From assembly GCF_000169175.1 (NCBI RefSeq), contig NZ_AAWS01000058.1:1-57212 (forward strand): DNA of 57,212 bases. The letters run 5' to 3'. Numbering within the stretch: the first letter of the stretch is position 1; every line of letters starts with the position of its first letter. The position numbers and the translations under genes were made by a program. The DNA is from Microscilla marina ATCC 23134. GTDB taxonomy: Bacteria; Bacteroidota; Bacteroidia; Cytophagales; Microscillaceae. Under the pieces are notes generated by a model. That model was not told where the DNA came from. It searched no databases and saw nothing but the letters and a program-made list of their open reading frames with translations. Positions 46,084 through 57,212 of the stretch are shown here, one piece after another.

Positions 46084-47850
46084 TCACCTTCTTTGTAGTC
46101 GCATTTTATGCAGTTGGGCATAGTGCCCCTGCAATGCCAGTAATTCGGCATGGGTACCTTGTTCTTGTATGCTGCCTTTGTCCAATACTATAATTTTGTC
46201 TGCTTTTTGGATAGTAGACAGGCGATGAGCAATGATGATAGCAGTACGTCCTTTCATCAGTTTTTTGGTGGCATTTTGTATCAACCTTTCAGTTTCTGAA
46301 TCTACCGATGAGGTTGCTTCATCCAATACAATAATTTGTGGGTCGTATACCATGGCTCTTATAAAAGCAATCATTTGGCGTTGTCCTACCGATAACGTAG
46401 CGCCACGCTCCATCACGTTGTAGTTGAGTCCTCCCGGAAAACGGGAAATAAATGTTTGTGCGCCTACCATCTCTATAGCTTCCCATAATTTTTGTTCGCT
46501 GATGTGGGTAGCACCCAACAAAATATTGTCTCTGAGCGATTGAGCAAACAAAAACACATCTTGCAACACAATGCCTATTTGTGACCGCAAAAAGCCAAGG
46601 CTGTAAGCCTCTATGGGGGTGTTGTCAAGCGTGATTGTTCCCCGGTTTTTTTCATAAAACCTACCCAACGCATTAATCACCGATGATTTGCCTGCTCCTG
46701 TAACACCTACCAGGGCGAGGGTTTCACCTGCTTTTACTTCAAACGATATGTCTTTTAGTACAGGCTCTCCCTGGTGATAGGCAAACCACACCTTATCAAA
46801 CCTAATGTGCCCTTGTACCTGTGGGGGAGTGTAAGTGCCCCTGTCAGGAATTTGCTCTTGCACATCTATCATTCCCAAAATATGGTGCAGGCTTACCAAA
46901 CCCGCTTGTAACACATTGAGGCGTTGGGCAAGGTTACGCACCGGACTAAACACCATGCGGATATACATGATAAAAGCTATTAATACTCCCAGCGATATTT
47001 CATTCTTTAATACACTACGTGCTCCATACCATACCAGCAAGCCAGTACCTCCTGCGGTGAGTGCTTCGGTAACGGGCAGGTATACCGACTCGTACCAAAC
47101 TGATTTGAGGTATATTTTTTTGAAACGGTGGCTTACCTCCCGAAACTTTGCCTGTTCGTTTTGTTGTGCGCCAAACAGTTGAATAATGCGCATGCCACTT
47201 ATTCGTTCCTGAACAAAAGCATTGAGTTCGGCTACAATGTCTCGTACTTCAGTCACCACTACTTTCATTTTCTCTTTAAACACAAACGAGCTCCACATAA
47301 ACAAAGGCAACAGTGAGATGCTTACCATGGTAAGTTGCCAATGAGTGTAAAGCATAATGGTAAAAATAGTAATGGTAAAAAAAATGTCGGCAATGAGTGC
47401 CGCAATGCCCGCCGAAAGAATACCCGATAGCGTTTGTACATCGGTAATATTGCGGGTCATGAGTTCGCCAATGGGGGTTTGGTCATAATACCTCAGCCGC
47501 AGGCTTAGTAGGTGTCGGTATACATGCATTCTAATGTCTCTGACTACGGTTTGCCCCAACCAAGCAGCCAAATAGGTATGAGCATACGTGAGCAATACCT
47601 GCCCCAGCACTACAGCCACCATCCACCACGATATGGTCACCAAACCTGCGTAGTTATTTTTGAGTATGTAATTGTCTACAGCCAGTTGTACTAAAATGGC
47701 CTGCGAAGGGCGAAAGACAGCAGTGATGATGGCCAGGAAAAGCAGCAGGTAAAAATAGGCTCGATAAGGGGCGACAAACTCAACCAAACGGTGGTAAATT
47801 TTCCAGTGGAGTTTTTTTCTTTGCGAGGTAGCTTTTTCTTTTACTGGCAT
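46084..47850 (-). CDS. ABC exporter with fused membrane and ATPase domains
   Basis: 588 residues from the ATG at 47850 (MPVKEKATSQRKKLHWK); the frame to 47904 adds only a weak tail. Six membrane helices fill about residues 25-320 with VRDIRMHVYRHLLSLRLRYY and GELMTRNITDVQTL of the type I exporter coupling region. The ATPase has Walker A GVTGAGKSSVINALGRF, signature LSVGQRQM, Walker B IIVLDEATSSVDSET and an HRLST switch. This is the MsbA/MdlB-like half-transporter class. There is no C39 peptidase domain. It lies 3 kb from the graspetide genes, in the opposite direction, so a link to peptide export is open. Confidence 0.92.
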   Translation of the reverse strand: MPVKEKATSQRKKLHWKIYHRLVEFVAPYRAYFYLLLFLAIITAVFRPSQAILVQLAVDNYILKNNYAGLVTISWWMVAVVLGQVLLTYAHTYLAAWLGQTVVRDIRMHVYRHLLSLRLRYYDQTPIGELMTRNITDVQTLSGILSAGIAALIADIFFTITIFTIMLYTHWQLTMVSISLLPLFMWSSFVFKEKMKVVVTEVRDIVAELNAFVQERISGMRIIQLFGAQQNEQAKFREVSHRFKKIYLKSVWYESVYLPVTEALTAGGTGLLVWYGARSVLKNEISLGVLIAFIMYIRMVFSPVRNLAQRLNVLQAGLVSLHHILGMIDVQEQIPDRGTYTPPQVQGHIRFDKVWFAYHQGEPVLKDISFEVKAGETLALVGVTGAGKSSVINALGRFYEKNRGTITLDNTPIEAYSLGFLRSQIGIVLQDVFLFAQSLRDNILLGATHISEQKLWEAIEMVGAQTFISRFPGGLNYNVMERGATLSVGQRQMIAFIRAMVYDPQIIVLDEATSSVDSETERLIQNATKKLMKGRTAIIIAHRLSTIQKADKIIVLDKGSIQEQGTHAELLALQGHYAQLHKMRLQRR

Positions 47851-47946
47851 TTTTGTGTGAATATGATTTAATTTGGCAACGGGCACTTTTTGACATGCGT
47901 GCACTATTATCCAATGTCTGTAAAAAACACCAGTTTTTATACTTTA

Positions 47947-48107
47947 AGTGATCTTTCATAAATAATTTGAGCCATTAAAGTGTATCTATTGCCCTCATTC
48001 TTCTCAAAAAAAAAGCCTCATAGCTTTGGCTATGCACCGTTTTTTTTGAATCGTCTGAGAACAATATATTTTCTTAAATTGGCACATCTTATTTTTTCCA
48101 GATCACT
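47947..48107. mobile_element. 161-bp MITE-like element, copy 2
   Basis: Same ends (AGTGATCT ... AGATCACT), length and inner hairpin as 9753-9913. It fills the space between the ABC exporter and the WG-repeat gene and stops 22 bp before the latter's ATG, so it forms the leader of that gene's transcript or holds its promoter. Confidence 0.75.
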
Positions 48108-48129
48108 AAATAAAAAAAGAAACACTTTT

Positions 48130-50109
48130 ATGAAATACCTTAATCTATTATTGCTGCTTTGCTTTGGGCAACTATTGGCACATGCACAGCTACCTGTTCC
48201 CAAAAAAGAGCAGCCCTCCCAAAAGTATGGGTTTATCAACCGCGCTGGCAAAGTGGTGATTTCTCTTAAATATAGCAATGCCCGCGATTGTTCGGAGGGG
48301 CTCATAGCAGTACAAAAAAGAAAAAAGTGGGGGTTTATTAATAAAAAAGGCAAAGTAGTGATCAGGTTTAGGTACGAAGATGCCCGCCCTTTTTCTAATG
48401 GATTGGCAAGAGTAAAGAAAGAAGACAAGTGGGGGTTTATTAATAAAAAAGGCAAAGTAGTGATTGAGTTTCAGTATGAAGAGGTTGGCTGGTTTTTGCG
48501 AGGGCGTGCCAAGGTAAAGGAGGAAGGCAAATGGGGGTTTATTGATCAAGAAGGTAAAACTGTGATTGAATCAAAATATGACCATATAGACAGCTACGCC
48601 AAAGAGGGTTTTTATCGGGTAAAAATAAACAACAAGTGGGGACTCATTGGACAAGATGGCAAAGTGATCGTACCCATTGAGTTTGACAAGGTCACAGACT
48701 TTTACCAGGGAGTAGCAAGGGTAAAAAAGGGGGATTACTGGGGCTTGGTGAACCAACAGGGAAAAGTGGTGATCGACCCCATTTTCGACAAGGTGAGGAG
48801 TACAGCCAAGCGTGGCTATATCAAGGTAAAGAAAAACGGTCAGTGGGGAATGGTAGATAGTACTAGTAAAGTAATTATTCCTCTAGAGTTTACATACTTG
48901 TACTATTATGCCAACAGCGATTTTATTTTGGTAAAGCAAGGGGTGAAGTGGGGAGCGTTTACCACAAAAGGTGGGTTATTGGTACCCATCGGGGCTGACC
49001 GGGTAAGTGTGTTGAATAAGCATTTGATCATAGTAAGAAAAGACAAACAGTGGAAGTTGGTCAATCAGCAGGGCAAACAGTTGCTTCCGCTCAAGTACCA
49101 AAGTATCCAGCTGGCCAGCAAGGCTTTGCTCATTGTAAAACAAGGTGGCAAGAAGGGCATCGTAGATACAGCAGGAAAGGTAATGCTGCCTATAGTATAT
49201 GATAAGGTCAGTGTTTTTCATAAAGGGCTTGCGTCGGTAAAAAAACAAGGCAAGTGGGGCTTTATCAACACAAAAGGCCAATTGGTCATTCCTCTGGAGT
49301 ACGATTACCTGGGGTATTTTCAAAGAGGGTTGGCATTGGTAGAAAAAAATCAAAAATACGGATTTATGGATACTACTGGCAAGGTGGTGATTCCTCTGAT
49401 ATATGACAAAGCCAATCGCTTCAATTATTCACTATCGGTGGTAAAAAAAGGAGGCAAGTGGGGCTTGATTGACTCTACTGGTAAAGTAGTGCTGCCCATT
49501 GCCATACAAGCCGATAAGGTAGTATTAAGAAATAACTTACTTTTGTCTATAGAAAAAAACAACAAAAAAGGGTTGTTGAACTTGCAGGGCAAAACGGTGA
49601 TTCCTACAAAGTACTTGCGTATATATCGTTTTTATGAAAGCGAAGAGAAGGTGTTTTGGCAGGCAGAAACCAAAGGCTCTACAAGTATGTACAATGCCCA
49701 GGGGCAGCTATTGTTTACAGCAAAACTACAACACCTCAATTGGTTTTTAAAAGGTTTTTTTGTGTTGTACAATGAAGGTAAAACTGCCTTAATAAACGAG
49801 CAGGGCAAGGCGTTGTTTTCGTGGGGCAAATACAAGTTCAGGGGCTTTTCGGAGAGTTTAGAAGATGAGTTCTTTTGTGTAACTACCACCAACGCCAACC
49901 AACACAAACAGGTAATGGTGTATAACCGCAACGGTAAGCCAATGCTGACTACTAAACTAGACTTGATCAAGCCGTTTCGAGAAGGGCTTTCCCAAATAAA
50001 AAAAGGCAAGCGGTGGGGACTGATCAATAAAAAGACCCAAATAGTAGTTGCTCCAAAATATGGCAGTATTGGCAAGTTTCGAGAGGGGCTGGCAAAAGTA
50101 GGTGATTAA
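48130..50109 (+). CDS. Exported WG-repeat protein
   Basis: 659 residues from the ATG at 48130, which gives a signal peptide (YLNLLLLLCFGQLLAHAQ); the frame extends upstream to 47980 only through the repeat element. The mature protein is about 15 WG repeats of 42-45 residues: a WGFINKKGKVVI strand pair, a YD/YE turn and an FxxGLAxVxKxGK pair. Repeats near residues 500-600 are degenerate (KTALINEQGKALFSWGKYK). WG-repeat proteins form beta-rich surface or periplasmic structures in Bacteroidota, without known activity. Confidence 0.9.
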   Translation: MKYLNLLLLLCFGQLLAHAQLPVPKKEQPSQKYGFINRAGKVVISLKYSNARDCSEGLIAVQKRKKWGFINKKGKVVIRFRYEDARPFSNGLARVKKEDKWGFINKKGKVVIEFQYEEVGWFLRGRAKVKEEGKWGFIDQEGKTVIESKYDHIDSYAKEGFYRVKINNKWGLIGQDGKVIVPIEFDKVTDFYQGVARVKKGDYWGLVNQQGKVVIDPIFDKVRSTAKRGYIKVKKNGQWGMVDSTSKVIIPLEFTYLYYYANSDFILVKQGVKWGAFTTKGGLLVPIGADRVSVLNKHLIIVRKDKQWKLVNQQGKQLLPLKYQSIQLASKALLIVKQGGKKGIVDTAGKVMLPIVYDKVSVFHKGLASVKKQGKWGFINTKGQLVIPLEYDYLGYFQRGLALVEKNQKYGFMDTTGKVVIPLIYDKANRFNYSLSVVKKGGKWGLIDSTGKVVLPIAIQADKVVLRNNLLLSIEKNNKKGLLNLQGKTVIPTKYLRIYRFYESEEKVFWQAETKGSTSMYNAQGQLLFTAKLQHLNWFLKGFFVLYNEGKTALINEQGKALFSWGKYKFRGFSESLEDEFFCVTTTNANQHKQVMVYNRNGKPMLTTKLDLIKPFREGLSQIKKGKRWGLINKKTQIVVAPKYGSIGKFREGLAKVGD

Positions 50110-50134
50110 AAATGGAGGCAATTGATACGTGTAT

Positions 50135-50175
50135 AAACCCCTTCAGGGTGGCGTAGAGCTACTTTGGAGGGGTTT
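50135..50175 (+). terminator. Terminator of the WG-repeat gene
   Basis: AAACCCCT and GGGGTTT arms with a second inner hairpin (GTAGAGCTAC), 25 bp after the stop. No long T-run. Confidence 0.55.
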
Positions 50176-50842
50176 GTTCATGAAAAAAACTGCCTGAGGA
50201 CTTTTACAGCAGTTACTTTTCTTTTCAAATTTATATCTACCTTGCTACAAAGTGCTTTTTAGATGCTTTGATGTTTATTTAGTACTATTTTTTAATTTAA
50301 AGAAATGTTTTTAAAGCAAGTTTAGAGTCCATTTACAGCACCCCAAGTAAGGTAAAATAACCTACACAGGAAACTAACTTTAATAGGCGGGTTTTCTCTA
50401 GTATAGCCAACTGACAGTTAGTAATTATATGGTTGTTCATAATAAGTCAAATGGTTATTAGTCAGTTGATTGTATTATTCATTGTGGTCATGAAAAGAAT
50501 ATTGTTTTGCTTTTTTTGAATACTTGCAAAAGTCCTCTGTTTTTTAAAAACCACCTTGAACAACGTTCCAGGAAAAGCACTCTTGTCAGAGCTTTTCCTG
50601 GAGTGCTGAATGAGTAACAGTTAAAGAGATACTCTTTGAAAAATTATATAATTACTTGTTATTCAAATAAGTTGAGATCAAAAAAAGCTGCAAACCAAAT
50701 ATTATTCTTTAGATTTTTGGAGAATAATCTCAAAACATAGAGATTGCACACATAATAAAAAAGCGAGCATGCGCATGCCTTGACTTTTAATATCACACAT
50801 ACAAGTACTTATTATTCAACTAATTACAACATAATAAATCTC
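50176..50842. promoter_or_regulatory. Upstream region of the graspetide locus with a strong hairpin
   Basis: CCAGGAAAAGC at 50568-50578 and GCTTTTCCTGG at 50591-50601 form a perfect 11-bp stem with a 12-nt loop and no T-run. It lies 242 bp before the first precursor gene. No exact TAnnTTTG box was found; TAGATTTTTG near 50711-50720 is the nearest. Otherwise AT-rich with no gene. Confidence 0.45.
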
Positions 50843-51013
50843 ATGAAAAAGAACGTTAAAAAACCATTTTTTGCCAAATTTTTAGAAAACCAGGTAAAAG
50901 AAGAAAGCTTGACTAACGCAAAAGGCGGAACTTGTATTCAGACCAGAAAGTACCCTTCTGACAGTGACGAGTATGTTACTATGAAGTACCCTTCTGACAA
51001 TGATGAGTTTTAG
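50843..51013 (+). CDS. Microviridin-type graspetide precursor 1, two cores
   Basis: 56 residues from the ATG at 50843; the longer frame from 50780 is rejected because the microviridin leader begins at MKKNVKKPFFAKFLENQ. PFFAKFLE is the leader helix that binds the ATP-grasp ligases. A double-glycine site with Leu at -7 (SLTNAKGG, Gly28-Gly29) ends the leader. Two cores follow at a 12-residue period: TRKYPSDSDEY (Thr34, Lys36, Ser39, Asp40, Asp42, Glu43) and TMKYPSDNDEF (Thr46, Lys48, Ser51, Asp52, Asp54, Glu55). Microviridin cores are TxKYPSDx(E/D)(E/D); Thr-Asp and Ser-acid esters and a Lys-acid amide are expected in each. A free Cys31 lies between leader and core. Confidence 0.93.
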   Translation: MKKNVKKPFFAKFLENQVKEESLTNAKGGTCIQTRKYPSDSDEYVTMKYPSDNDEF

Positions 51014-51029
51014 AGAGTAAGCTATCATC

Positions 51030-51091
51030 AGAGAGCACTCAAGCGATAGTGTATTACTCAATAAAATGCTTTGTTGAATTGTGTGCTCTCT
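51030..51091 (+). terminator. Hairpin after precursor 1 (attenuator or weak terminator)
   Basis: AGAGAGCAC (51030-51038) pairs with GTGCTCTCT (51083-51091), extended by CAA/TTG after one mismatch. The loop is about 36 nt. It is followed by AAAAGAGCG, not a T-run. Confidence 0.4.
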
Positions 51092-51302
51092 AAAAGAGCG
51101 TATGTGTGATGTTGGTACAATGAGCAAAAAATAGCTGTTTTTTGGGGTAACCCAAAAGCATAAGCGAATGTTTGTTGCTTAAAATATACACCCTTGAACA
51201 TACGCTCATAGCAAAACCAATCCTTTATAAACTCATCTCCTCTGTTGATGGTTAAAAACTTACCGTTGGTAAATTAGGACGATTTGTTTTATACAAAGTG
51301 CT

Positions 51303-51310
51303 TAACTTTG
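51303..51310 (+). promoter_or_regulatory. Candidate promoter of graspetide precursor 2
   Basis: TAACTTTG is an exact TAnnTTTG box; TTTG at 51283-51286 lies 16 bp upstream, a slightly short spacing. The leader would be about 80 nt. This suggests that precursor 2 and the ligases can be transcribed apart from precursor 1. Confidence 0.4.
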
Positions 51311-51396
51311 TGGCAATGAGTAGGAGCTGCTCGCTTTGGGCGAGTTACTACATCAGGTACCTAATTTTTTAATTATTATAAAACATTATTCATCTT

Positions 51397-51603
51397 ATGA
51401 AAAAGGTAAAAAAACCATTTTTTGCTCAATTTTTAGAAAATCAAATTGCCGACGAAAAACTAACCAACACCAAAGGAGGGGCAAGTGCTGCTGCTGCTTC
51501 TGACAAAAAGAAGAAGATCAAAATAGAACAAACTATGAAGTACCCTTCGGACGCTGACGAAGATTTTACAATGAAGTATCCTTCTGACAGTGACGAATGG
51601 TAG
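51397..51603 (+). CDS. Microviridin-type graspetide precursor 2, two cores
   Basis: 68 residues. The leader MKKVKKPFFAQFLENQ is almost the same as in precursor 1 and ends with KLTNTKGG (Gly27-Gly28). A spacer of 17 residues follows, first Ala/Ser-rich, then DKKKKIKIEQ. Two cores at a 12-residue period: TMKYPSDADED (Thr46, Lys48, Ser51, Asp52, Asp54, Glu55) and TMKYPSDSDEW (Thr58, Lys60, Ser63, Asp64, Asp66, Glu67). The aromatic last residue (Trp68) is as in cyanobacterial microviridins. The basic spacer is absent from precursor 1 and might be a second cutting site for a Lys-specific protease. Confidence 0.93.
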   Translation: MKKVKKPFFAQFLENQIADEKLTNTKGGASAAAASDKKKKIKIEQTMKYPSDADEDFTMKYPSDSDEW

Positions 51604-51636
51604 ACACAGCCATTGTTCATTATAACAGGCTTTTGA

Positions 51637-51713
51637 TTTTAAGCTGTTGGCTTAAAAGCTAAAAGTCTAGCTATTTACAAACTGCTTGTTTATATTTTAG
51701 ACAAGTAGTTTGT
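51637..51713 (+). promoter_or_regulatory. Two hairpins between precursor 2 and the ligase genes
   Basis: TTTTAAGC-TGTTG-GCTTAAAA at 51637-51657 and ACAAACTGCTTGT / ACAAGTAGTTTGT at 51677-51713 (one G-T pair). Neither has a proper T-run. They could lower ligase expression relative to precursor or protect the precursor message. Confidence 0.45.
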
Positions 51714-51770
51714 GCAACATTTGTTTTGTTCCCTAACCCATCCGGTTTTTCTCATAAAGCAACCCCCCGA

Positions 51771-52763
51771 ATGAAGATATTGTTATTGACCCACAGTGGT
51801 GATTTTTTTACCATAGACCGGGTACAGCAAGCTTTAGAAGCAATAGGTACCCACCCCATCAGAATCAATACTGATTTATATCCCGAAGAAATCAAAGTGA
51901 ACTTTCACCTAGAGGCAGGCACTCCCAAGGTTTTTATTGAAACCCCCCAGGGCACTATAGACACTGATGAGGTAGAAGGGGTGTGGATGCGCCGAATATG
52001 GAAACCTCGCCTGGACAAAGAAATTCAAGGTGACTTTAGGAATATTTGCCTGGGCGAATCTCAAACTGTTTTACGCAATTCGCTTTTGTTGCTCGACCAC
52101 GCGGTGTGGTTAGACCCATTAGAGCATATCTCGCGGGCGTCTAATAAGTTGTACCAACTAAAACTTGCCGTAAAGCACGGGTTACAGGTGCCTGCCACGC
52201 TGATTACCAATGAGGCAGCACAAGCGTTGAGCTTTTATGAAAATAAGCAAGACATTATTACCAAAATGCACGACCAAACTGATTATGGGATGGGGCGTTC
52301 GGCTATGCAAATGAACACCTACAAGGTAACCCCTGAGCATGTAGAAGAGTTTGAATCGCTGCAATATTGTCCAATGACTTTTCAGAAAGAAATCAAAAAA
52401 GCCTGTGAGTTACGGGTAGTATACGTAGGAGGGGAGTTTTTTACCGGAGCCATTGATACCAGCCAATCTGCCCAGGGAGGCACCGATTGGCGCCGTAGCG
52501 AAATTAACGAAGCCGAGTGGACTCACTTTAGCCTGCCAGCAGATGTACGGGCAAAACTGGTCAGTTTTATGGACGAACTCCACCTGTCGTTTGGGGCTTT
52601 AGACCTTATTCATACTCCCAATGATGAGTATGTATTTTTGGAGGTAAACCCACTGGGCGAATGGGGTATGCTGGAGCGTGACCTTGATTTGCCTATTTCT
52701 AAAGCAATTGCTCATACACTATATAAACAGATAAAAACTAAACAACACACTACTACCGCATGA
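51771..52763 (+). CDS. mvdC: MvdC/MdnB-type ATP-grasp ligase (lactam-forming)
   Basis: 330 residues from the ATG at 51771 (MKILLLTHSGDFFTIDRVQQ). The N-terminal domain has INTDLYPEEIKVNF and VEGVWMRRIWKP; the ATP-grasp part shows KLYQLKLAVKHGLQVPATLITN, the ATP-binding Lys in IITKMHD, CPMTFQKEIKKACELRVVYVGG, TDWRR and YVFLEVNPLGEWGMLERD with the metal ligands Glu and Asn. It differs from the next gene in the way cyanobacterial MdnB (Lys-acid amide) differs from MdnC. It is likely to act second on each core. Its last codons overlap the next start (ATGA). Confidence 0.85.
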   Translation: MKILLLTHSGDFFTIDRVQQALEAIGTHPIRINTDLYPEEIKVNFHLEAGTPKVFIETPQGTIDTDEVEGVWMRRIWKPRLDKEIQGDFRNICLGESQTVLRNSLLLLDHAVWLDPLEHISRASNKLYQLKLAVKHGLQVPATLITNEAAQALSFYENKQDIITKMHDQTDYGMGRSAMQMNTYKVTPEHVEEFESLQYCPMTFQKEIKKACELRVVYVGGEFFTGAIDTSQSAQGGTDWRRSEINEAEWTHFSLPADVRAKLVSFMDELHLSFGALDLIHTPNDEYVFLEVNPLGEWGMLERDLDLPISKAIAHTLYKQIKTKQHTTTA

Positions 52764-53776
52764 ATGTATTAATTATTAGCTGGAGCGGCGACAATGAGAG
52801 CGTGGCACTGGTAACCAAAGCTATAGAAGCTAAAGGAGGAAAAGCCTACCGATTTGACACTGATCTTTACCCTACTCAACTGATGATGTCGGCTGGGTAC
52901 GAGGGCAACAAGAGAACTTTGCGCCTCAAGGGTGAACAAATGGACCTTGACCTTGCCCAAGACATTGACGCGATTTGGTACCGCAGGCTTAGAATAGGAC
53001 AAGAGATTCCGCAAGAGATCAACAAGCAGCTGTACATGGCTTCGGTAGAAGAGTCTAAAAAGACTTTTGCCGGAATGTTGGGCAGTATGAAAAAATTTAC
53101 GCTGGACCCTTACCACAAGGTAAGACATACCGAAAACAAACAGCTACAGCTACAAATAGCCGCCGAACTGGGGCTTGATATTCCCCGCACTTTGTTTACC
53201 AACGATGCCGAAGCGGTCAAAGAGTTTTACCACCGTGTAAAAGCTCCTTTGATTACCAAAATGCAACATTCGTTTGCGGTGTACGACAAGGAAGGGCGCG
53301 AAAATGTGGTATTTACCAACGAAATTACTGAGGAACATCTCGAAGATCTGGAAGGGTTGGATGTTTGCCCAATGACTTTTCAGGAAAAAGTTGACAAAAA
53401 GGTCGAGCTTCGTATTACCATTGTTGGCGACCAGGTGTTTGCTGCAGCGGTAGATTCCAGTGTGTCTGAACTTTCTAAAACCGACTGGAGACGCGACGGA
53501 GTGGGGTTGGAAAACGCCTGGAAACCTTACAACTTGCCACCCGAGGTAGAAGCCAAGCTACTCAAGCTCATGGATGAGCTAGGGCTCAACTATGGGGCTG
53601 CCGACGTGATTGTTACCCACGATGAGCGTTATGTTTTTCTGGAGGTGAACCCCGCAGGTGAGTTTTTCTGGTTAGACAAATTGTTTGACAGGCAAATTTC
53701 GGAGGCATTGGCCAATGTACTGCTTGACAAAGCTCCCCGCCGCACTAACAATATACAAATGTTGGCAGAGGCTTAA
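52760..53776 (+). CDS. mvdD: MvdD/MdnC-type ATP-grasp ligase (lactone-forming)
   Basis: 338 residues. Strong likeness to MdnC/MvdD: MNVLIISWSGDNESVALV, KAYRFDTDLYPTQL, IWYRRLRIGQ, LDPYHKVRHTENKQLQLQIA, CPMTFQEKVDKKVELRITIV, AWKPYNLPPEVEAKL, LGLNYGAADVIVTHDERYVF and LEVNPAGEFFWLDKLF. In the known pathway this enzyme makes the two ester rings (Thr to Asp, Ser to acid) before the amide ring is closed. It begins with a 4-bp overlap with mvdC. No acetyltransferase (MdnD) or peptidase gene follows; the next 783 bp are non-coding. Confidence 0.9.
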   Translation: MNVLIISWSGDNESVALVTKAIEAKGGKAYRFDTDLYPTQLMMSAGYEGNKRTLRLKGEQMDLDLAQDIDAIWYRRLRIGQEIPQEINKQLYMASVEESKKTFAGMLGSMKKFTLDPYHKVRHTENKQLQLQIAAELGLDIPRTLFTNDAEAVKEFYHRVKAPLITKMQHSFAVYDKEGRENVVFTNEITEEHLEDLEGLDVCPMTFQEKVDKKVELRITIVGDQVFAAAVDSSVSELSKTDWRRDGVGLENAWKPYNLPPEVEAKLLKLMDELGLNYGAADVIVTHDERYVFLEVNPAGEFFWLDKLFDRQISEALANVLLDKAPRRTNNIQMLAEA

Positions 53777-54559
53777 ACCTGCGATAGGCGATCGGCAACA
53801 AGCGACAAGTCACAAGTGATAAAACACTTGGTGGTTTGTCGTTTTTTTATGTGTCCCATTAGGAATTACGAATTTGAGAATTACGAATTACGAATTGGGC
53901 GAAGCCATTCGTAATTTAGTCCAGAGTCGGTAGTCGGTAGACCATAGTTTTTAGCCTCGCTTTGCGACCATTCGTAATTTAGTCCAGAGTCGGTAGTCGG
54001 TAGACCATAGTTTTTAGCCTCGCTTTGCGACCATTCGTAATTAGCTTCGCAGAGCTCCTTCCAGTCGGTTCGTAATTGAAAAATTCGTCATTTAGTTGGT
54101 AGACCATAGTTTTTAGCCTCGCTTTGCGACCATTCGTAATTAGCTTCGCAGAGCTCTCCAGTCGGTCGTAGTGAAAATTCGTCATTTAGTTGGTAGACCA
54201 TAGTCACTTCAAACCCATTCGTCATTTAGTCAGTAGCGCTTTGCGCCCATTCGTAATTAGCTAAAGCAGAGCTCCCTCCGGTCGGTTCGTAATTGACCAA
54301 TTCGTAATTAATAAGCCTTGCGCCCATTCGTAATTGAATGATTCGTAATCCTCGACCAATGCCCCTTTTACATCCTCCAAAGTAGCTATTTTACCTACCA
54401 AAGTATCCAGTCATTGTTCAAGTGGTTTTTCATCGGGCACAACTGGTTGTCTGTCTGCCAATCAGGTTATTAACAACTCATTAACGTCTTGTCTAAACAG
54501 CTATCCCGTTATTTATCATCATAATAACCGCCCGATAAAGGTACCATAAACCAATACCC
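53777..54559. repeat. Repeat-rich spacer with a 63-bp tandem unit
   Basis: From 53905 a 63-bp unit (CCATTCGTAATTTAGTCCAG at its start, CATAGTTTTTAGCCTCGC later) is present as two units with a third start at 54031; a partly matching unit starts at 54130. Between and after them lie shortened pieces with TTAGCTTCGCAGAGCTC and GTCGGTTCGTAATT. The same words occur at 40750-40860 and 57030-57212. 54360-54559 shows no repeats and holds the promoter region of the next gene, with no exact consensus box. Confidence 0.75.
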
Positions 54560-56788
54560 ATGAAAAAACAACTATCAAACTATCAGAGGCTTTGCCTGCT
54601 GGTCTGTTGGCTTTTTGCCTGTTCTCTCACCTCTTATGCCAAACCCAACCCTACCCGAAACCAACAAACCTATAAGGTAAACATTGTAAGAACTGCTGCC
54701 AAGATAAAAATCGACGGCAACATCAACGAAGAAGCCTGGAAATCTACCCATGCTGCCCGCAATTTTCTCCGAAAGTGGCCTACCGACAAAGGGCAGGCTG
54801 AAGCCCAAACCGAAGTACGATTATTATACGACGATCATTTTTTGTATATCAGTGCAGTATGCTTTATTGACAAAAAACCAGTGATTCAGACGCTTAGGCG
54901 AGACGCAGGACATTGGAACAGCGATGGCTTTGCTATATTAATGGACCCTATGAACCAGCACAGCAACGGTTTTTTGTTTGGGGTAAACGCCGGAGGTGCC
55001 CAAATGGAGGGATTGACCGTGGGTGGGCAAAACTCTATGGAATGGGACGCCAAGTGGTACTCTAGGGTAAAACTACACCACGATCGCTGGGTGGTAGAAA
55101 TGGCCATTCCTTTTAAGTCATTGCGCTACAGCGAAACCATTGACAAGTGGGGGATCAACTTTATAAGAAACGACATGCAGCGCAACGCTTACTCTACCTG
55201 GGCGCACGTGCCTATTCCTTACGATGGTACCGACTTGGGCTACACGGGGGCTTTGCGTTGGGACTCACCCCCAAAAAAGGTCAAAGGCAATGTAGTGTTG
55301 ATTCCTTATATGATAGGAGGACTGTCAGAAAACTTTGAGGAAACCAGTGGGCTGGAAAGAAGAGGCAATGCCGGGCTGGACGCCAAAATAGCCATTACGT
55401 CTAACCTCAACCTGGACCTCACCATTAACCCTGACTTTTCGCAGGTAGACGTAGACCAACAAGTAACCAATTTGAGCCGTTTTTCGCTGTTTTTTCCCGA
55501 AAGGCGCAATTTCTTTTTAGAAAACCGAGACTTATTTGCCAACTTTGGTTCAGGACGGGCGCAACCGTTTTTTTCGCGCAAAGTAGGGCTCAAAAATGGC
55601 GAACCTGTGCCCATTTTGGCAGGCGCACGCTTATCGGGCAATATTACCAAATCTATGCGGGTGGGCATTTTAGACGTTCAGACCCAAGGCAACAACGAAG
55701 CCGACTCGTTGGGACAAAACCAGTTTGTGGCCACTGTACAACAGCAGATTTGGGGGCGTTCCAGCATCAACGCCATCTTGGTAAACCGACAGGCGTTTGA
55801 TGGTACCAATATGCTTGCCAATGATTTTAACCGGGTAGCCGGAATGGAGTTCAGGTATTTGTCTAATAACGGTGACCTGCGCGGAAACTTAAGGGGCTTT
55901 AAGTCTTTTACGCCCGACCACCTGGATCGAAGCCTTACGTATGGAGGCTTTGCCGAATACCGTAACCGCAAGTTCAACGCAGGGGTGTCTTATGAACAAT
56001 TTCAGGAAAACTTCATTGCCGAGTTGGGTTTTACGCCTCGTTTGCAAAACTACGATGTAGTAAACGACCGAACTGTAAATATTGGGTTTACCCGCTGGGC
56101 AGTGTGGGGCAGTTATACTGTTTTTTCTAAGGGAGGAGTCATCAACAACCACCGCTTTAACCATTGGCATGTGTTATACAATAACGACGTAACGGGGCAG
56201 TTTCAAGAACGCAGCATGGGGTTTAACTATGACCTCAACTTTACCAATAGCAGCAACTTAAGCCTAAGCGCCCGCTACAGCGAAGTGCAATTGCCTTTTG
56301 ACCTCGACCTGATTGGTGGAGATGAATATTTACCCGCCACATTTTATGCCTATAACTGGGGCAGGGCAGAATATAACTCAGACAGCCGTCAGCCATTTTC
56401 GGTGGGCACTTTTGTGCAATATGGCACTTTTTATAATGGCACCCGTTTGTCTTATGGAGGGGGGATTAATTTCAGGGCGCAGCCTTGGGGCAATTTTAGG
56501 GTAAATGTAAGCCAAAACTATATAGAATTGCCTGGTAGTTATGGCACAGCAAACCTTACCCTGGTGAGCCCTACTATAGAAATTTCTTTTTCTAACACGA
56601 TGTTTTGGACAACTTTTTTGCAGTACAATACTCAAGCCGACAATTTCAATATCAACAGTCGCTTTCAGTGGCGTTTCCGCCCCATGTCCGACTTGTTTAT
56701 TGTATATACCGACAACTATTTTGCCGAGGCTTTTAAGGTGAAAAATCGGGCGCTGGTCATTAAACTGAGCTATTGGTTGAATCTTTAG
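54560..56788 (+). CDS. CBM9-like / DUF5916 outer-membrane protein
   Basis: 742 residues with a signal peptide (LLVCWLFACSLTSYA). The first domain (about 40-240) is a carbohydrate-binding family 9-like sandwich: IKIDGNINEEAWKST, VRLLYDDHFLYISAVCF, DGFAILMDP, NSMEWDAKWYSRVKLHHDRW and EMAIPFKSLRY. The rest is DUF5916, a long series of amphipathic strands that begin with LDLTINPDFSQVDVDQQVTN and SLFFPERRNFFLENRDLF and end with LVIKLSYWLNL, as an outer-membrane barrel should (aromatic near the end). The ligand is unknown. It is a single gene between two repeat-rich spacers. Confidence 0.88.
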   Translation: MKKQLSNYQRLCLLVCWLFACSLTSYAKPNPTRNQQTYKVNIVRTAAKIKIDGNINEEAWKSTHAARNFLRKWPTDKGQAEAQTEVRLLYDDHFLYISAVCFIDKKPVIQTLRRDAGHWNSDGFAILMDPMNQHSNGFLFGVNAGGAQMEGLTVGGQNSMEWDAKWYSRVKLHHDRWVVEMAIPFKSLRYSETIDKWGINFIRNDMQRNAYSTWAHVPIPYDGTDLGYTGALRWDSPPKKVKGNVVLIPYMIGGLSENFEETSGLERRGNAGLDAKIAITSNLNLDLTINPDFSQVDVDQQVTNLSRFSLFFPERRNFFLENRDLFANFGSGRAQPFFSRKVGLKNGEPVPILAGARLSGNITKSMRVGILDVQTQGNNEADSLGQNQFVATVQQQIWGRSSINAILVNRQAFDGTNMLANDFNRVAGMEFRYLSNNGDLRGNLRGFKSFTPDHLDRSLTYGGFAEYRNRKFNAGVSYEQFQENFIAELGFTPRLQNYDVVNDRTVNIGFTRWAVWGSYTVFSKGGVINNHRFNHWHVLYNNDVTGQFQERSMGFNYDLNFTNSSNLSLSARYSEVQLPFDLDLIGGDEYLPATFYAYNWGRAEYNSDSRQPFSVGTFVQYGTFYNGTRLSYGGGINFRAQPWGNFRVNVSQNYIELPGSYGTANLTLVSPTIEISFSNTMFWTTFLQYNTQADNFNINSRFQWRFRPMSDLFIVYTDNYFAEAFKVKNRALVIKLSYWLNL

Positions 56789-57212
56789 TGAAGAGTCGGT
56801 AGCCGATAGCCCCGACAGGGGGCAAGCTTCAAGCGACAAGTCGCAAGTTACACCCTGTTTAACTGCGTTGAGCTCATCACAGCAAATTGCTGTAGATTCG
56901 GTTCACAGGTAACTACACTTTTCTATTACGTTGATTTTCAGTAACTTATAAAAATAGTAGTTAAAAGTCAATGGTCAGTAATATTGTTTTTATCAATTTT
57001 GCATATATGACAAATATGTTGAATAGTTAGGAGTCGGTAGACCGTAGTTGCATCGCGCCCATTAGCTAAAGCAACGCTCCCTTTGGTCGGTTCGTAATTG
57101 AACAATTCGTAATTTAGTCCGGAGTTGGGAGTCGGTAGACCGTAGTCGCATCGCGCCCATGCTCCCTTTGGTCGGTTCGTAATTTAGTCGATAGTCCATA
57201 GTCAGCAATGTT
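56789..57212. repeat. Repeat-rich spacer at the right edge
   Basis: 56815-56850 has the CAAGCTTCAAGCGACAAGTC words seen at 36985 and 53800, followed by TACACCCTGTTT shared with 37060. From 57030 the GAGTCGGTAGACCGTAGT and GGTCGGTTCGTAATT words occur twice in tandem at about 100-bp distance. No gene is seen before the window ends. Confidence 0.65.

Follow-up and report, generated by a model that had tools for sequence, protein, structure and literature searches.

Does a bacterial locus with two short precursor peptides, each holding two microviridin cores, belong to a known kind of graspetide cluster, and if so, are the two cores of each peptide kept joined or cut apart? The locus in question occupies positions 50,843 to 53,776 of contig NZ_AAWS01000058.1 from Microscilla marina ATCC 23134, a member of the Bacteroidota; the whole of the 57,212-nucleotide stretch that was analysed is called the window below. 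Judged by its sequence, the locus is a microviridin cluster of class II (multi-core precursors), a genuine member of a kind already described. It consists of four genes:

50843-51013, forward strand: precursor 1, 56 residues; leader PFFAKFLEN; GG motif at residues 28-29 (AKGG); cores TRKYPSDSDE and TMKYPSDNDE
51397-51603, forward strand: precursor 2, 68 residues; leader PFFAQFLEN; GG motif (TKGG); a lysine-containing spacer that varies in length; cores TMKYPSDADE and TMKYPSDSDE
51771-52763, forward strand: MvdC/MdnB-type ATP-grasp ligase, 330 residues, predicted to form an omega-amide (lactam); TIGR04185, 494.6 bits (cut-off 425)
52760-53776, forward strand: MvdD/MdnC-type ATP-grasp ligase, 338 residues, predicted to form two omega-ester (lactone) rings; TIGR04184, 528.7 bits (cut-off 475)

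All four products exceed the curated cut-offs of NCBIfam. For the precursors these are 60.0 and 70.8 bits against NF033738 (cut-off 26), and both also match PF12559 (38.4 and 47.9 bits, cut-off 21). The claim of a sequence-only reading of this DNA, that one ligase of each type stands beside the precursors, is borne out by the two TIGR models, and the locus thus holds the pairing of a lactam-forming with a lactone-forming enzyme that marks a tricyclic microviridin. The two ligase genes overlap by ATGA. For the MvdC-type gene we took the ATG at 51771 as the start, although the listed open reading frame (ORF) opens at a TTG at 51726; the MvdC match begins at residue 3 counted from the ATG. Among proteins of solved structure, the closest relatives are 5ig9 and then 7mgv (CdnC) for the MvdD-type ligase, and 5ig8 and then 7m4s (AMdnB) for the MvdC-type ligase, in each case over nearly the whole length. 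We take 5ig9 to be MdnC and 5ig8 to be MdnB; the entries themselves read 'ATP grasp ligase'.

The precursors carry the shared PFFAxFLEN leader that the sequence-only reading had ascribed to ORFs of 56 and 68 residues, and the helix motif PFFAxFL within it (PFFAKFL and PFFAQFL) predicts ligase binding. Both precursors have two KYPSD cores, as that reading had it, and in both the cores repeat at a pitch of exactly 12 residues, separated by a link of only two residues (YV in precursor 1, DF in precursor 2). Each of the four cores retains all six ring-forming positions of the pattern TxKxPSDx(D/E)(D/E). A stricter form, T.K[YF]PSD.[DE][DE], is found four times in the six frames of the window, every time inside the two precursor ORFs, and never in 100 mononucleotide shuffles. 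The bare KYPSD codon pattern occurs at a level near chance genome-wide (9.77 Mb in 135 contigs), with 12 matches, four of them at the locus, against seven for a reversed control.

The same four genes recur in a second genome of the genus, that of an uncultured Microscilla sp. (L016; in genome G001 the locus has identical contig coordinates, and the two are taken as one genome, which makes a single comparison and not two). Precursor 1 is identical there at the protein level, its only nucleotide change being synonymous. Precursor 2 shows seven synonymous changes and one amino-acid change over 64 of 69 codons (five spacer codons are omitted), and the one replacement, F/Y, falls in the link between the cores; its spacer after the GG is six residues longer in L016. 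The ligase genes have 44 synonymous and four other codon changes (mvdC) and 59 synonymous and 11 others (mvdD, whose products are 97% identical). DNA identity is 99.4% and 95.2% over the precursors, 91% in the two gaps, 85% upstream and 64% downstream, where the neighbouring genes are different ones; a gene for a WG-repeat protein lies upstream in both genomes. Because change in the precursors is mostly synonymous while the spacer and the non-coding DNA vary, selection appears to hold the leaders and cores in both precursors and to leave the spacer free. A survey of 57 genomes (its own and relatives at genus, family and order level) found the precursor family in two, both of them from the genus.

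Chance or spurious precursor ORFs are excluded by the family cut-offs, the shuffles and this bias towards synonymous change. The same comparison bears on whether one of the two precursors might be decayed or silent, leaving a single real substrate. Duplication within a locus does often leave a degenerate copy, but in L016 neither precursor has lost its leader or a core, and the differences are almost all synonymous, which makes this explanation very improbable. Conservation, the family models and the relatives of solved structure together uphold both the graspetide/microviridin identity put forward by the sequence-only reading and its count of four potential tricyclic units at the locus.

How does this layout compare with what has been described? 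Three classes of microviridin precursor are distinguished, a scheme that goes back to Ahmed et al. 2017 as retold in PMC13039773 and PMC7823629 (here and below, articles identified by PMC number are represented by excerpts). In class II a precursor has as many as five cores, which may or may not be separated by GG (PMC13039773, PMC7823629), and examples of both sorts are already in print (PMC5934393, PMC13039773, PMC7823629). The precursors of M. marina, with one leader, two cores and a GG motif (AKGG or TKGG) apiece, agree with a class whose members have a GG motif and, behind a single leader, between two and five cores. Microviridin clusters have moreover been mentioned from Bacteroidetes, 'e.g., Microscilla marina' (PMC5934393), and the present locus is perhaps that very cluster. 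The excerpts of PMC5934393 name no microviridin product from Microscilla, in a literature search that reached few subscription papers.

To place the layout among its relatives, genome contigs were scanned with the MvdD-type protein, and the window was compared with the best 80 of 92 confirmed loci, 81 in all. The set was thus chosen by similarity to one ligase and is mostly cyanobacterial, so its frequencies do not hold for graspetides at large. At 70 loci one or more precursors have a strict core; the other 11, some of them truncated by contig ends, were left out of the counts. The 83 precursors recovered (82 distinct) have one strict core in 17 cases, two in 31, three in 28 and four in six. 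Neighbouring cores, 105 pairs with the window included, are most often 12 residues apart (26 pairs), followed by 13 (23) and 14 (17), and the link between them lacks GG in 81 pairs and contains it in 24. Two or more multi-core precursors occur together at nine of the 81 loci (the window, L016, L034, L054, L067, L070, L072, L083 and L091). One of these, L070 from Planctomycetes bacterium Pla86, has precisely this layout: two precursors with two strict cores each, at a 12-residue pitch and with no GG between them, upstream of an MvdD-type ligase. Pla86 differs in belonging to another phylum, in its spacers and in an MvdD-type protein only 48% identical to that of M. marina. The layout is therefore not unique, nor does the comparison support calling it unusual, since relatives also show multiple cores, the 12-residue pitch, links free of GG and loci with more than one multi-core precursor.

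What would these four genes make? We put a probability of roughly 0.93 on a class II microviridin pathway of ring closure, cleavage and export by a C39 transporter encoded elsewhere, and serine protease inhibition, its chemistry and the order of its steps being carried over from characterised relatives. The PFFARFL motif is needed by the ligases, and MdnC/MvdD closes two esters per core before MdnB/MvdC adds the amide (PMC7823629). By analogy, the PFFAxFL helix would be what the ligases bind in each precursor. Two esters would be formed in each TxKYPSDxDE core by the MvdD-type ligase (Thr1-Asp7 and Ser6-Asp9), and next one amide by the MvdC-type ligase (Lys3-Glu10). A core would then have three rings and a precursor up to six, and the locus would yield four tricyclic units. 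There is precedent in AMdnC, which cyclises a three-core precursor distributively, in a loose N-to-C order, and also an engineered precursor with four cores; for a second lactone it draws on an aspartate, D95 (both PMC5934393). Cutting after the GG and export would then fall to a C39 peptidase-transporter whose gene lies elsewhere in the genome, and the product would act as a serine protease inhibitor.

Several points weigh against this pathway. The most abundant species of AMdnA had lost five of the six waters predicted, and two engineered AMdnA variants without the 'quasi core' stayed unprocessed (both PMC5934393), so that processing of multiple cores may be incomplete here as well. No C39 match lies on the contig of the window, although a C39 peptidase gene is often found in clusters of classes II and III (PMC13039773; 'normally' in PMC7823629), a feature which is thus not strictly defining. 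Cleavage and export in trans would accordingly be an assumption, because the contig is without C39 and the genes flanking the locus encode a WG-repeat protein and a DUF5916/CBM9 protein; the family scan within the window covered six proteins. Three C39 (PF03412) matches are present in the genome, on contigs C21, C6 and C65.

The likely targets can be read, with caution, from the residue matching position 5 of characterised microviridins. In the complex of microviridin J with trypsin, Arg5 occupies the S1 pocket; Arg or Lys at this position favours inhibition of trypsin and subtilisin, and the F5M variant of microviridin J inhibits subtilisin at 0.09 umol/L (all PMC7823629). Arg stands at this position in the first core of precursor 1 and Met in the other three cores, and on these grounds the Arg core is expected to be of trypsin type and the three Met cores of subtilisin type.

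Whether these heads act singly or in pairs depends on what happens between the cores. The sequence-only reading held that no cut site lies there in either precursor. This stands as far as GG is concerned, and what has to be added is that in both precursors the leader is followed by a GG (AKGG, TKGG), which places the predicted leader cut site there and not between the cores. One possibility is that the cores are never separated and that the mature product is a tandem, two-headed tricyclic inhibitor, in which case precursor 1 would have an Arg head and a Met head on one chain. A link of just two residues without GG favours this, and a joined product has a precedent in plesiocin, which carries several linked cyclised motifs and gains potency with their number (PMC13097080); the compared set agrees, in that an inter-core GG is encoded in some pairs (24) and not in others (81). 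The absence of GG is weak evidence all the same, because the leader of class I precursors is removed by another kind of protease, a bifunctional one homologous to the Zn-dependent AplP (PMC13039773), and a further protease might act between the cores. Nor does the literature searched, in the portions available, contain a native class II product, joined or cut.

Alternatively, some protease outside the C39 family may cut the cores apart, leaving each to act as a single microviridin; having two precursors would then do no more than raise yield and variety. Described microviridins are indeed single cores of about 13 residues (PMC7823629 among others), and a two-residue link would leave short tails much like those on the single-core compounds. 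On the other hand, neither flanking gene is a candidate for such a protease, and no recognised cut motif lies between the cores. We regard joined and separated cores as having about equal odds, and each of the two as a tentative proposal that falls somewhat short of an even chance. A broader proposal, more doubtful again, is that maturation without a cut would yield tandem two-headed cages, precursor 1 being bifunctional (Arg, trypsin-like; Met, subtilisin-like), and that the 12-residue pitch without GG would represent a bivalent design found in cyanobacteria, planctomycetes, myxobacteria and Bacteroidota. With 81 of 105 core pairs free of GG, the question of joined cores extends to class II precursors widely.

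The surroundings of the locus are as follows:

47980-50109, upstream flank: WG-repeat protein (PF14903, 13 stretches)
beyond the ligases, downstream flank: DUF5916/CBM9 protein, assigned by the family scan

We know of no link between WG repeats and graspetides. Between the ligases and the DUF5916 gene is a 63-base tandem repeat (53905-54042; 2.2 copies, 100% match), set in a longer patch of similar-looking repeats that reaches 54350; this is the part least conserved in L016 (the 64% given above), and the genes beyond it differ. Scans for consensus promoters and terminators had hit counts that do not clearly exceed those of shuffled DNA (11, where shuffles average 8.5 with a standard deviation of 2.6, and 4 against 4.3), and positions 47500-57212 gave no Rfam match.

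Among the relatives, a home-made scan with crude motifs, which does not amount to a rate, placed an ABC- or C39-like ORF near seven of the 81 loci. Nine hand-picked flanking ORFs of relatives (one from L016) included two ABC transporters (L073 and L078) and no C39 match at E <= 1e-5; an ORF beside the Pla86 cluster (L070:912-3581) is an ABC transporter without a C39 match. All 35 of the relatives' genomes searched (35 of the 80 loci) have C39 matches among those listed, counted genome-wide and not tied to the clusters.

Three further ligases in the M. marina genome match TIGR04184 below its cut-off. One, on contig C3, is preceded by a 43-residue ORF (L101:3035-3166, reverse strand) with a PFFAKQLEK motif at its C-terminal end; a hairpin and a run of T follow this ORF, as judged by eye. 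It is kept in the second Microscilla genome (L105:1257-1388, forward strand), the two copies differing by three amino-acid codon changes, all in the first eight residues, and four silent ones, of which one lies inside the motif and one next to it. The ligase itself has a best match of 41% identity outside its own genome (395 genomes of the phylum), and after it comes a 412-residue JmjC-like protein (PF08007, 16.6 bits, below the cut-off of 22). A graspetide leader moved to the C-terminus by engineering still works in fuscimiditide (PMC13003496), and the ORF would be of interest as a natural follower-type precursor; the plain rival reading is a precursor in decay, its core already gone.

A second region (C27:21000-27000; L102, also L011) has an MvdD-like ligase scoring 348 bits, which is below the cut-off. 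The gene next to it runs in the opposite direction and by eye resembles one for a protein kinase, and no PFFAxFL-type ORF was found in the 6 kb. The region C23:39000-46500 (L103, also L013) holds genes for an ATP-grasp protein, for a 346-residue protein whose tail is rich in Cys, and for a set of six short paralogous precursors; five of these end in (Y/F)NDY.GGPV..KDGD.. after a KGG motif, and the sixth is divergent. Judged by eye, the 346-residue protein is a putative SPASM protein, and the whole looks like a grasp-with-spasm peptide system that has a family of precursors.

Set beside known systems, the M. marina locus leaves existing knowledge of the microviridin family unchanged, and offers a compact and conserved two-by-two class II system in Bacteroidota, of four genes only, that is a handy test case for possible bivalency in multi-core microviridins. 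Among its closest described counterparts is the class II precursor AMdnA of Anabaena sp. PCC 7120, which, as far as the excerpted sources describe it, has likewise one leader with a ligase-binding motif, tandem cores and an MdnC-type ligase; the GG motifs described for its class are present in the M. marina precursors too. The two differ in that M. marina has two precursor genes with two cores each where AMdnA is one with three, in the Bacteroidota host, and in the lack of a C39 gene on the contig. Plesiocin, as portrayed in the same kind of source, differs in its hairpin rings, its single ligase and its lack of sequence similarity to microviridin; it shares with the M. marina precursors the arrangement of several linked cyclised motifs on one peptide, and it is a serine protease inhibitor.

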